In this document: piece by piece, positions 20,702 through 25,120 of the stretch | How the letters are laid out: the number at the start of each line of letters is the position of its first letter | Numbering within the stretch: the first letter of the stretch is position 1 | NCBI RefSeq assembly: GCF_011065895.1 | Contig: NZ_JAALCR010000014.1 | Span: 1-64,000, forward strand | Direction of reading: 5' to 3' | Origin: Paludisphaera rhizosphaerae | Lineage (GTDB): Bacteria; Planctomycetota; Planctomycetia; Isosphaerales; Isosphaeraceae | Length of the DNA: 64,000 nt | The notes under the pieces: generated by a model | Seen by the model: the letters and a program-made list of their open reading frames with translations, nothing else | Database searches by the model: none | What the model was told of the DNA's origin: nothing | Position numbers and translations under genes: made by a program

Positions 20702-22054
20702 ATGCGGCTCCTTCGATTCGTGATCGCCTGGCTGCTCCTCGTCACCGGGGAGGCGGTCGCCGATGACGGCCCCATCGCCCTCACTCACGTCCGGTTGATC
20801 GACGGAAGCGGTGGACCGGCGATCGACGATACGACGATCGTGATCGCCGGCGGACGGGTCCTCGCTGCTGGACCTGCCGCGACAGTCCCTCCCGGCGCGG
20901 CGGTCCGCGAACTTCGAGGCAAGACGGTGACTCCCGGTCTGATTTCGGATCACAGTCACATCGGCCAGGTCCGCGGCGTGAGCGTCGGCGCGCAGAATTA
21001 CACTCGTGAGACGATTGAGGGCGAGCTTCGGCAGTATCGCAACTACGGCGTGACGACGATCACGGCCCTGGGGAACAACGGCCCGCTGTTCGAGACGATC
21101 CGCGCCGAGGCCCACGCCGGCAAGACCGACGGCGCGGACCTGTTCGGCGTCGACCGGGCCATCGGCGTGCCCGACGGCGCGCCGCCGCAGGCGATGATCA
21201 AGGTCGGCGCCGACCAGTTGTTTCGACCGCGCAACGCCGACGAAGCCCGCGCGGCGGTCGACGCGATGGCAGACCGCAAGACCGACCTCGTGAAGATCTG
21301 GCTCGACGACTTCGGCGGCGGCGTCCCGGCCAAGATGAGCCCGGCCGTTTACCAGGCGGTCATCGACCAGTCCCACAAGCGGGGCGTTCGCGTGGCTGCC
21401 CACATCCACGACCTGGCCGACGCCAGGGCGATCGTCGCCGCTGGCGCGGATATCATCGCCCACGGCGTTCGAGACCAACCCGTCGACGCCGAGTTCATCG
21501 CGGCTCTGAAGGCGAAGGGCGTCTGGTACATCCCGACGCTCGCCCTCGACGACGCATCCTTCGCCTGGGCCGATCAGGCCGCCTGGACTCAGACCGCGTT
21601 CGCAAAGGCCGCGATTTCGCCGGAGTTGGCCCATCAGATCGACGATTCGGAATGGCGAGCGAAGATCCTGGGCGATCCGAAGTTGAAAGGGTCGCGGACG
21701 TCGCTCGTCATGAATCAGAAGAACCTGAAGACGCTGTTCGACGCGGGCGTCAAAATCGGCTTCGGCACGGACAGCGGAGCCACTCCCTTGCGAGTCGCCG
21801 GCATCGCCGAGCACCGTGAACTGGCCCTGATGGTCGAGGCGGGCCTGACTCCGATGCAGGCCCTGACCATCGCCACGACTCACGCCGCTGAACTGCTCGG
21901 TCTGCACGACCGCGGCCGAATTGCTGCGGGCCTTCGCGCCGACCTCATCGTCTTCGACGCCGATCCCTTGCAGGAGATCGGGAACAGCAAGACGATCCGC
22001 GAGACCTGGGTTCTCGGCCGCGCGTATCCCCGCGCGGCCGAAGCGAAGCCCTGA
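20702..22054 (+). CDS. Secreted amidohydrolase-family metal-dependent hydrolase
   Basis: A 450-residue exported enzyme. The signal peptide is MRLLRFVIAWLLLVTGEAVA, followed by the imidazolonepropionase/prolidase-like amidohydrolase fold. The first metal site is DHSHIG in place of the usual DxHxH, the likely carboxylated Lys is in TDLVKIWLDD, the next His is in VRVAAHIHD, then ADIIAHGV, and the last Asp is in GFGTDSGATP. Such periplasmic enzymes cleave cyclic amides or dipeptides. GGGAGGGG precedes the ATG. It follows the HAD gene by 42 bases on the same strand and may share its transcript. It ends convergently to hmp. Confidence 0.92.
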   Translation: MRLLRFVIAWLLLVTGEAVADDGPIALTHVRLIDGSGGPAIDDTTIVIAGGRVLAAGPAATVPPGAAVRELRGKTVTPGLISDHSHIGQVRGVSVGAQNYTRETIEGELRQYRNYGVTTITALGNNGPLFETIRAEAHAGKTDGADLFGVDRAIGVPDGAPPQAMIKVGADQLFRPRNADEARAAVDAMADRKTDLVKIWLDDFGGGVPAKMSPAVYQAVIDQSHKRGVRVAAHIHDLADARAIVAAGADIIAHGVRDQPVDAEFIAALKAKGVWYIPTLALDDASFAWADQAAWTQTAFAKAAISPELAHQIDDSEWRAKILGDPKLKGSRTSLVMNQKNLKTLFDAGVKIGFGTDSGATPLRVAGIAEHRELALMVEAGLTPMQALTIATTHAAELLGLHDRGRIAAGLRADLIVFDADPLQEIGNSKTIRETWVLGRAYPRAAEAKP

Positions 22055-22062
22055 CCGGGTGC

Positions 22063-23295
22063 TCAGGCCGACGCCAGCGCCGGGGCGGTCACGTCCTGGC
22101 GAGGGCCGAAGAACTCGTAGCGGATTCGATCCTCGTCGACGCCGAGTTCCTTGAGCGCGGTATAGACGCCTCGCATGAATGGTCGGGGACCGCAAAAGTA
22201 GAAGACAGCCTTGTCGACCGGAGCCCAGCGCCGGAGGAAGTCGGCGCTCACCACCCCGACGCCGTCGCAAAGCCCGTTGTCGAGATCGTCGGCCAGGGGT
22301 TGGTCGAAGAGGACGTGCGTCGTGACGTTCGGCAACTCGTCCAGCTTCTTGATCTCGTCGGCGAAAGCTCGGGCCCGGCTGTTCCTCGCGGCATGCAGGA
22401 GATGCAGCGGGGCGCGCCGGCCGGTATGGACGTGGTGCTTGGCCATCGACAGCAGCGGCGTCACGCCGATACCGCCCGCGAGCAGGACGACCGGTCGATC
22501 GTCTTCAGAGAGGGTGAATTCGCCGCAGGGGGGGCCGATCTCCAGCCTGTCGCCGACCTGGACGTCGTCGTGCAGGTGGTTGGAGACCAGGCCGTCCGGC
22601 GCGTCCACGGCGAGCTTCGACTCACGCTTGACGCTGATCCGATAGTGATCCAGCCCAGGACGATCCGAGAGGCTGTAATTGCGGGGGGACGTCGGCGTCC
22701 TGGGGAGGTCGACGCGGATCGTGAGATACTGACCTGGCTCGAATGTCGGCAGCGGTCCGCCGTCGGCCGGCCGGAGGTACAGCGAGGTCACCTCCGCGCT
22801 TTCGGGGACCTTGCGATCGACGATGAACTCGCGATAGCCGTTCCAGCCTCCGACCGCCTCGCGCTGGGCCTGATAGATCGTGGCCTCGCGGTTGATGCAG
22901 ACGTCCGCCAGGAAGCCGTACGCTTCCGCGACAGCCCCGATCACCTCGTCGGTGGCCGCCTCGCCGAAGACGTCGCGGATCGCCGCCAGGAGGTGCTTGC
23001 CGACGATCGGATAATGTTCCGGCTTGATCCCCAGGGAACAGTGCTTCTGAGCGATCAATTCGATCGCCGGGGCGAGCACCGCGGGGTTGTCGATGTGCGC
23101 GAAATAGGCGCAGATCGACCCCGCCAACGCTCGCTGCTGCCCTCCAGAATGCTGGTGCGCCTGGTTGAAGTACGCCAGGACCTCGGGGTTGCCGGCGAAC
23201 ATCCGGGGGTAGAACCGCCGGGTGATCGCCTCGGCGTTCGCCGCCACGGCGGGCGTGATTCGCTTGATGATCTCGATCGTCTCGGGCCGAAGCAT
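22063..23295 (-). CDS. hmp: Flavohemoprotein (nitric oxide dioxygenase)
   Basis: A 410-residue cytosolic enzyme that converts NO and O2 to nitrate with NAD(P)H. The globin domain (1-140) has the distal Tyr29 (RRFYPRMF), Gln53 and the proximal His85 in [16 protein letters not shown], at the positions known in E. coli Hmp. The FAD domain shows [11 protein letters not shown] and the NAD domain [11 protein letters not shown] and [13 protein letters not shown] at 23295 is used; 26 extra upstream residues in a longer frame would overlap the promoter. It is divergent from an Rrf2-family regulator, with an operator-like palindrome inside its promoter. Confidence 0.97.
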
Positions 23296-23334
23296 GGTGA
23301 GAGGACTCCCTGGAGAGCGGTAGGCGACCTCGTC

Positions 23335-23386
23335 TTGAAACCTGCACCTGAATATACAGAATAGATTCTGCACGTCAAGGTGCAGG
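23335..23386. promoter_or_regulatory. Divergent hmp/rrf2 promoters with nested operator palindromes
   Basis: On the minus strand, TTGACG (23373-23378) and TATATT (23351-23356) are 16 bases apart and drive hmp. The palindrome CAGAATAGATTCTG (23357-23370) fills that spacer. On the plus strand TTGAAA (23335-23340) and CAGAAT (23357-23362), also 16 bases apart, could drive the regulator. An outer inverted repeat, CCTGCACCT (23341-23349) and AGGTGCAGG (23378-23386), encloses it all. One bound repressor could close both promoters. Confidence 0.75.
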
Positions 23387-23416
23387 ATCTGGTTGGCGAC
23401 CTGGAGACGGCGATCA

Positions 23417-23848
23417 ATGTTGCCGAAGACGGCGGAATATGCCTTGCGGGCTGCGGTCTGTCTGGCGGGAATGCCAGGACGGCCGGCGTCGGCTGACGTG
23501 CTGGCGGAGCGGACGAAGACGCCCCGGTCCTATCTGAACCGGGTCTTGCAGGACATGGCGAAGGCGGGGCTGGTCCATTCGCGATCCGGCCCGGGCGGCG
23601 GTTATGAGCTGGCCAGGGCCACGGAGGACGTGACGATTCTCGACGTGGTTGAGGCTGTGGCTCCCATCGAGCGGATTCGCCACTGTCCACTCGGTCTGCC
23701 GTCGCATACGACGCTCTGTCCGTTGCATCGCGAGCTGGATCGGGCCTATGCCACGGTCGAGGCTGCGTTCCGAGGGGTGACGCTCAAGGATCTGATCGAC
23801 TCCACCGACCCGATCGTCCCTCTGTGCGACATCAAACGGGAGGGGTAG
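23417..23848 (+). CDS. Rrf2-family transcriptional regulator (NsrR-like)
   Basis: A 143-residue winged-helix regulator. The Rrf2 pattern is complete: [18 protein letters not shown] at the N-terminus, [39 protein letters not shown], then DVVEAV. Cysteines lie in [20 protein letters not shown] and near the end in PLCDIK. The spacing (C-x10-C) is wider than in classical NsrR, so ligands of any Fe-S cluster are uncertain. ATG at 23417 is chosen as the family start. Divergence from hmp strongly suggests NO-responsive control of hmp and its own gene. Confidence 0.93.
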
Positions 23849-24809
23849 GGGGGCGACGGCCGAACCAGCGGCCCGCCAGGCCGGGAGCGATGGCCAGCGA
23901 TGCCATTTGAGCGGCCAGTTTCGGATCAGCGAGAATCGTTCCCAGGATCGTCGGCGAGATGTGCAGAGCTCGGCCGAGCGCCCGCCGGGCCAGGTCGACG
24001 CGGCCGGCGCGGAGGGCGTCGTGAGCGCGGTTGAGGTAGGCGCGGGCGAGGCGCCGGCCGGGGCGAACGCCTCGACGGGTGAGTAGCCCCTGGGTCTCCT
24101 CCAGATCGTCGAGACTCGCCTTGAAGCGGTGCGTTTCGCTGGCGCCGTGCCAGCGGACGGAGACTTTGGGCTCGCCGTTGATCCAGGCGACTCCGAAGCG
24201 ATCGGCGACGCGGAGCCAGAAGTCCCAGTCGACGACGTACCGCAGCTTCGGGTCGAACCCGCCGACCGCCTGGTGAGCCTCCCGGTTCGTCGTCACGGCC
24301 GAACACCGCAGGACATTTCCTTCGGCCAGGTGTGCGACGAAAGCGCCGGGAGGGAATTCGACGGCCGGCTCGGTGAAAGTTCCCACAAGACCGCCAGGCT
24401 CGACCACGTCCGACGCGAGAGGACGGCCCGCTCCGTCGATCACGTCGGCCGGCTCGGCGATCAGGCCCGGCGGGTTTGTCCAGGGTCTTTCCAGAACCTC
24501 GAAACGGCGGGCGAGGTCGCCGGGCCGCATCACGTCGTCCTGGTGGAAGACGGCGACCCAGGGCGTTCGCGCGAGCCTGATGCAGCGGTTCCAGTTGCCG
24601 GCGAGGCCCAGACGCTCAGGGTTGACCTCGACTCGGGCCCGGTCGCCGGTCAGGGCGCGAACCATCGCGGCGGTCTCGTCGTCCGATCGGTCGTCGCAGA
24701 CGAGCAGGTCGAACGGGCGGCATTCCTGGCTCAGGATCCCCGACAGGGCTTCCGCCAGGTGACGCTCGCCGTTGAACGTGGGGATCGCGAGGGTGAGCTT
24801 GGGGGTCAT
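23832..24809 (-). CDS. Family 2 glycosyltransferase
   Basis: A 325-residue cytosolic GT-A enzyme starting [18 protein letters not shown]. The nucleotide-sugar motifs are [10 protein letters not shown] near residue 40 and the DxD-like VFHQDDVM near 95. The region with [12 protein letters not shown] matches the acceptor-side acidic motif of the family. A C-terminal helical part (about 245-325) follows. The start at 24809 overlaps the DUF971 stop by four bases (ATGA), so translation is probably coupled. It ends convergently and overlaps the 3' end of the Rrf2 gene by 17 bases. The acceptor is unknown. Confidence 0.9.
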
Positions 24810-25120
24810 CCCGACGTGGGGAGGTTGTGGGCCGCTTCGCGGAGCAACTCCCAGGTGAAGATGCCCGTGGAGTGGCCGTCGCTCCACGAGGGCTGGATCG
24901 CGTAGGAGCCGACGGCCTCGATCCCCTCCAGCTTGACGTCTTCGCGAACGTGCTCGATCTGGATGATGCGCTCGCCGGTCCACTCGTCGCGGCAACTCGC
25001 GCAGGGGCACTCAGCGCGGAGGTAGCGATAGGGGAGGCGGTGGACCTCGCCGTCGGGCCAGGAGACCTCAAGGATCTGCTCGGCTTGATGGGCTCGGATG
25101 TTGGTGGGAGGATCGATCAT
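24806..25120 (-). CDS. DUF971 domain protein
   Basis: A 104-residue protein matching DUF971, the domain also found at the N-terminus of gamma-butyrobetaine hydroxylase. The features are LEVSWPDGEVHRLPYRYLRAECPCASC, with a Cys cluster typical of the family, and a C-terminal SWSDGHSTGIFTWELLR block. In other bacteria DUF971 is often near mrp/apbC and may bind iron or act in Fe-S assembly; that link is known only by neighbourhood, and here its partner is a glycosyltransferase. ATG 25120 gives the usual family length. In-frame starts further upstream (25156) lack ribosome sites. Confidence 0.9.
   Translation of the reverse strand: MIDPPTNIRAHQAEQILEVSWPDGEVHRLPYRYLRAECPCASCRDEWTGERIIQIEHVREDVKLEGIEAVGSYAIQPSWSDGHSTGIFTWELLREAAHNLPTSG

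Follow-up and report, generated by a model that had tools for sequence, protein, structure and literature searches.

The hmp gene of Paludisphaera rhizosphaerae and the divergent gene of an Rrf2-family regulator are separated by only about 120 bases, which raises the question of how one short stretch of DNA could control both genes, and in answer to which signal. The original prediction saw here a single 14-base palindrome, enclosed by an outer inverted repeat, on which one Rrf2 dimer with an Fe-S cluster would close both promoters and open them with NO. Based on a comparison of this locus with its counterparts in the phylum, we propose instead that two tandem 24-bp operators, dyads A and B, lie between the genes, that a dimer of the Rrf2 regulator represses hmp and probably itself, and that NO releases the dimer; we consider this the probable reading, held with reasonable confidence. 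The features are collected in the table, where positions refer to the window, the whole stretch of 64,000 nucleotides that was analysed.

Table. Features of the hmp/Rrf2 locus and their positions in the window.
Feature	Position	Strand	Description
hmp, NO-inducible flavohaemoprotein	22063..23295	minus	410 aa; NCBIfam NF009805, 512.5 bits (cut-off 432)
Rrf2-family regulator gene	23417..23848	plus	start ATG 23417; TIGR00738 and Pfam PF02082
Candidate operator, dyad A (ATTCTGCACGTC/AAGGTGCAGGAT)	23365..23388		from de novo motif; score 34.0, best 24-mer of the window
Candidate second operator, dyad B (AACCTGCACCTG/AATATACAGAAT)	23339..23362		score 22.8, second-best 24-mer of the window
14-mer of the original prediction (CAGAATAGATTCTG)	23357..23370		right arm of B facing left arm of A
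Outer repeat, left arm (CCTGCACCT)	23341..23349		left arm of dyad B
Outer repeat, right arm (AGGTGCAGG)	23378..23386		right arm of dyad A
hmp -35 box, TTGACG	23373..23378	minus	hexamer match; TTGAC kept in 16/18 loci
hmp -10 box, TATATT	23351..23356	minus	hexamer match; 16-nt spacer to TTGACG
Possible regulator promoter, TTGAAA-16-CAGAAT	23335..23362	plus	9/12 to consensus; weak

The hmp product carries globin, FAD-binding and NAD-binding domains (Pfam), and an Rfam search of 23200-23500 matched no RNA element. Its divergent neighbour, 86% identical to the Paludisphaera soli counterpart, passes the cut-offs of the Rrf2 superfamily (TIGR00738, 102.2 against 73.3; PF02082, 105.8 against 30). With the NsrR equivalog model NF008240 it reaches 46.7 bits where 182 would be needed, and it falls far under the cut-offs of the IscR, RirA and CymR models. 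The same genome has two more Rrf2 genes about 1.5 kb apart (G000:C20:126526 and 128075; L001 and L004). When residues are numbered with position 1 at the TTG at 23420, not at ATG 23417, E6, R10, C89, H96, C100 and H103 are invariant in all 28 aligned proteins and C136 is nearly so (Phe in L072). According to the available part of PMC5411485, the cluster of Streptomyces coelicolor NsrR is held by C93, C99 and C105 together with D8 of the other subunit, and D8 pairs with R12. By the ranges of the profile match, E6 and R10 fall on this Asp8 and Arg12, giving a carboxylate near residue 8 with an Arg four positions on, and at most two of the three cluster cysteines are matched; in their place stand C89, H96 and C100, with the middle Cys probably replaced by H96. 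That the Cys spacing would depart from classical NsrR had been predicted, and this C/H/C set bears it out. As for the NsrR operator, even the closest fit between the two genes departs from it at 6 of 14 positions, and at 3 mismatches or fewer there is no match near that stretch. Judged by model score, cluster Cys and operator, the regulator is not a member of NsrR.

The top profile match of the regulator is RsrR, a redox-sensing member of the superfamily, and in a Foldseek search with the predicted structure (pLDDT 83.3, from 5 sequences) RsrR (6hsd) had the lowest E-value and the highest listed TM-score by query, 0.76, belonged to NsrR (7b0c). In the RsrR alignment, E6 stands opposite E8 and C100 opposite the Cys of the ACP motif; C89 faces no Cys, and R10 faces His12. 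RsrR has a Glu and two Cys (and a His) as cluster ligands. A reference title in the accessible part of PMC9338935 names Cys, Glu and His. The same two operators could answer to redox state, iron or cluster supply, as with RsrR, RirA or IscR. The two RsrR matches speak for such a signal, as do relatives of the regulator that adjoin c-type-cytochrome-like genes besides globins, but most of the neighbours whose role is known have to do with NO (hmp, protoglobin, NorB and the hmpA of Deinococcus radiodurans), and we regard a redox or iron signal as unlikely. NO is a plausible signal from the linkage of hmp with the regulator gene.

The operators themselves came from comparison. The regulator was used as the query over 45 genomes of the family, our own included; 30 loci were fetched and their neighbours examined, and hmp lay divergent beside the regulator in seven of these (the window and six others). 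The upstream regions of these seven and of the close relatives L013 and L023 (L012 and L014, which duplicate L017 and L023, were removed) yielded de novo a palindromic motif, the 24-bp dyad ATnCTGCACCTnnAGGTGCAGnAT, with a log-likelihood of 138.9 over the nine regions (60 iterations), compared with 39.0-47.0 in 12 dinucleotide-shuffled sets (30 iterations). Dyads A and B are its two best places in the window; they stand in tandem, 2 bp apart. The third-best 24-mer, with a score of 16.9, is a weaker dyad-like stretch inside the hmp coding region (22555-22578) and probably arises by chance. Part of dyad A, CTGCAC-GTCAAG-GTGCAG at 23368-23385, is a dyad that the original prediction missed; it overlaps the 14-mer and extends to the full 24 bp. 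Since L013 and L023 have dyad A although their fetched flanks contain no hmp, such a regulator could have targets other than hmp. Beside these hmp-less relatives are genes for proteins with C..CH motifs (L014 3487-4662; L013 1548-2924, the latter with no Pfam match), which perhaps bind c-type haem.

Loci outside the discovery set gave the same picture. A search of 392 genomes of the phylum with Hmp at 1e-60 matched 16, our own included, and in 11 of the other 15 the regulator (59-71% identical) lay divergent beside hmp. These 11 test loci belong to two other families of the class, and none was used to build the matrix; the nine-region matrix finds the dyad in every one, with best scores per locus of 25.3-33.4 that 0 of 2000 mononucleotide shuffles reached in any locus. 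Of the 18 divergent loci, all have dyad A and 14 have dyad B, which is weak in two of them (7.8 and 8.7). Some of these loci are near copies: L064, L066 and L069 resemble one another closely, and L074 hardly differs from L075. The two-dyad signal in this comparison goes beyond chance, the expected control region common to hmp and the divergent Rrf2 gene is supported, and an Rrf2 switch with two candidate operators common to both genes is well supported by the comparison. At hmp loci with no adjoining regulator, the matrix scan finds a dyad in L063 (22.7), a borderline one in L070 (13.7, reached by 1 of 2000 shuffles) and none in L076 and L077. In G351 a single contig carries both genes, with 3.8 Mb between them; hmp retains dyad A (22.7), and at the regulator gene itself nothing convincing is seen (best 2.4), so autorepression would not be general. 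Two loci have features of their own. In L017 (G030, P. soli-like) the gap between hmp and the regulator is 546 bases and holds, by eye, an extra open frame on the regulator strand right after dyad A, so that two genes may be under the control of the switch there; and a second regulator copy, L092 (G068:C1:2181179), 62% identical to that of the window and in a genome that also has an hmp-linked one, has its own two dyads 118 bp apart with scores of 23.8 and 21.7.

Comparison also explains what the original prediction had seen. It had a single dimer sit on the central palindrome and shut both promoters, with the outer repeat as an accessory. The outer repeat is present, its arms complementary at 9 of 9 positions. 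The 14-base palindrome is there as well, but its centre, AG, is non-palindromic, which leaves 6-bp arms and 6 of 7 pairs, and it occupies 14 of the 16 bases of the hmp promoter spacer rather than filling it exactly. When the 124 bp from 23296 to 23419 were shuffled 2000 times by mononucleotides, a repeat with arms of 6 or longer and a spacer of 0-8 turned up in 17% of the shuffles, and 4% had at least two; the real stretch has two or more. Taken alone, the 14-mer is not beyond chance. As a genome-wide operator it was set aside, with 63 places at 2 mismatches or fewer against 36 for the reversed control; the genome holds one exact match to the pattern and four with one mismatch. All four arms noticed at first are variants of a single half-site, ATNCTGCACC: CCTGCACC on the left of B, ATTCTGCAC on the left and GTGCAGGAT on the right of A, and on the right of B CAGAAT, which reads inward on the other strand as ATTCTG. 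The 14-mer is thus, to judge from these arms, the seam between two dyads, mistaken for a unit. Because the spacing between the centres of A and B varies (26 bp in six loci, 27 in five, 29 in three), the 14-mer pairs well only at spacing 26, at 4-7 of 7 positions in those six of the 18 loci. In L019 its version is even perfect (CAGATTTAAATCTG), and at spacings of 27 or 29 the arms still face each other across a wider gap, two points in favour of a single dimer on the 14-mer; but the distance separating these arms changes with the locus (2, 3 or 5 nt) while each dyad keeps its 24-bp frame, pairing drops to 1-3 of 7 in the other 12 loci, and the four of these with no second dyad (L021, L022, L074 and L075) retain A and lack the 14-mer. 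We therefore think a single-dimer operator at this place very improbable.

Both dyads overlap promoter elements, as had been expected of the operator. The hexamers of the hmp promoter are found on the minus strand just as predicted, matching the consensus at 10 of 12 positions, and the centre of dyad A lies inside the -35 box and that of dyad B beside the -10 box. In the five genus loci with both dyads the -10 box is TATATT in four and TACATT in one. The hexamers proposed for a second promoter on the plus strand, TTGAAA (23335-23340) and CAGAAT (23357-23362), are likewise in place, the latter within dyad B, but the promoter that they would form is weak: CAGAAT agrees with a -10 box at 4 of 6 positions, and TTGAAA is kept in four of the five genus loci (GGCAAA in L019). 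A plus-strand promoter for the regulator is thus weakly supported. In the range 22000-25000 no promoter-like sites were found besides these two (shuffle mean 0.3, sd 0.7). That the conserved block is the hmp promoter alone, with incidental symmetry, is scarcely credible: TTGAC does lie inside dyad A in 16 of the 18 loci, and members of the genus are close relatives, but the dyad is not merely a promoter because L021 and L022 retain it with no GTCAA (TTGAC) box, and bases beyond the hexamers are also conserved, both arms changing together in part of the loci (CTGCAC/GTGCAG in L016, CTACACC/GGTGTAG in L022).

The dyad consensus at 2 mismatches or fewer has a single place in the 8.05-Mb genome, this locus, compared with 5 for the reversed control. 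Relaxed to 3 mismatches, it gives 30 places against 66 in the control, no excess that would indicate a wider regulon, and in the five other genomes of the genus the counts are likewise below control. Counts at this level exceed the control in G005 (46 against 17) and G034 (61 against 29); the matches listed for G005 include many copies of one sequence. The dyad switch looks local and dedicated. A dyad-like place in G028 (C1:2893396) was rejected by eye, as it lies at the start of an ORF resembling a DksA-type zinc-finger protein, whose ribosome-binding site AGGAGGT would be. Across the 392 genomes, hmp occurs in 16 and the regulator in 15, and 13 have both; three have an Hmp match and no regulator (G417, G389 and G418), and two have the regulator with no Hmp match at the cut-off (G318 and G377). 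The co-occurrence gives a Fisher p of 8.5e-20, uncorrected for relatedness.

Taking this together, we suggest a mechanism for the switch. The dimeric regulator made from the adjoining gene would bind dyads A and B. At A it would cover the -35 box of hmp, and at B the -10 box together with the weak plus-strand promoter region. With both dyads occupied hmp would be repressed, and because the regulator bound at B would cover that plus-strand region, it probably represses its own gene too, provided that this weak promoter is real. The cofactor is probably an Fe-S cluster, for which one subunit would supply C89, C100 and perhaps H96 as ligands and its partner E6. NO would damage or modify this cofactor, upon which the dimer would release the DNA and Hmp would be made. 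Binding, repression, cluster and NO signal are what we infer from the arrangement of the locus.

The regulator may belong to a wider family. Regulators about 50% identical have protoglobin as a neighbour in L015 and L028, where Pfam identifies it, and in L024-L027 and L029, where it was recognised by eye from the similarity of the N-termini; in L032 the neighbour is NorB. Protoglobin itself has a role in NO. A TGGAT-type motif lies upstream, the 24-bp dyad AAAnTGGATnTnnAnATCCAnTTT, mostly centred on GTCAA or TTCAA and scoring 235.9 against at most 46.1 in 10 mononucleotide-shuffled sets; its 17 of 23 loci were picked after inspection of the upstream regions, leaving out L031, L038, L040, L042, L043 and L044, so that the score speaks for the motif in those loci and not for how often it occurs. 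The tree unites the CTRCAC-type regulators in a single clade with a long branch (20 rows, support 100/99), and one change of half-site fits this tree, in which the Deinococcus rows are weakly placed. In D. proteolyticus (L096) hmpA and the regulator gene are not a divergent pair, and the scanned stretches, from a locus that excluded the DNA upstream of hmpA, held no dyad (best -2.3). For an Agrobacterium match, H9, no NO-related neighbour was named. We offer, tentatively and at somewhat less than even chances, a broader reading: a separate Rrf2 branch for NO defence in Planctomycetota and Deinococcota, in which a Glu/Cys/His/Cys cluster would sense NO in place of the three-Cys cluster of NsrR and one 24-bp operator frame over the -35 box would be retained. 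The half-site would have changed from TGGAT (at protoglobin, NorB and Deinococcus hmp) to CTRCACC (at planctomycete hmp) on one long branch; and since the spacing of the paired operators differs among lineages, two dimers would act side by side with no fixed phasing.

Rrf2 control of hmp has been described for proteobacteria, bacilli and actinobacteria, and the available part of PMC1274295 gives the NsrR motif and assigns hmp-linked Rrf2 proteins to NsrR; a BadM/Rrf2 regulator is also named in a denitrification gene cluster of Thermus in what is accessible of PMC3235269. In the open literature, with subscription papers largely outside its scope, we found no paper joining Rrf2, flavohemoglobin and Planctomycetes, nor one joining Rrf2 and protoglobin. 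The regulator described here fills the role of NsrR at hmp and yet departs from it in model score, cluster Cys and operator. Should it prove to be a sensor of NO, the idea of a cluster with fewer Cys ligands could be put to the test, for example with the relative from D. radiodurans, and a recognisable 24-bp operator frame offers a means of annotating switches of this kind in a phylum for which regulatory data are scarce.

How, then, does this switch compare with known systems? It shares with NsrR of E. coli and S. coelicolor the Rrf2 fold and the linkage to hmp (described in PMC1274295), but its half-site, ATnCTRCACC, differs from the NsrR operator, which PMC1274295 gives as gATGyAT-N5-ATrCATc. 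For RsrR of Streptomyces venezuelae, the available part of PMC5015018 describes a pair of dyads with one base pair between them, in the space between divergent genes, an arrangement that is, by analogy, a published precedent for dyads A and B; for operator structure we drew on the accessible part of PMC9338935. The RsrR dyads differ in their 11-3-11 form and in the divergent target (PMC5015018, same part), whereas our motif model, from a run at 24-bp width, has a 24-bp frame with an even centre. The Rrf2/hmpA pair of D. radiodurans (NZ_OV024759.1) is similar in its divergent regulator, 49% identical and carrying HCPLG..H..LCPLH, and in two 24-bp candidate dyads, one with GTCAA, found by a scan with no shuffle control (L097 3879-3953); it differs in its TGGAT-type half-sites, dyad starts 51 bp apart and the lack of a C-terminal PLC. 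The planctomycete Rrf2 proteins beside protoglobin and NorB (L015, L028 and L032) have the same C/H/C/H pattern and an upstream 24-bp dyad in the same frame, and differ in the TGGAT half-site and in a neighbour gene other than hmp. Most likely, the regulator acts in a mode like that of NsrR, with another DNA specificity and probably other cluster ligands.
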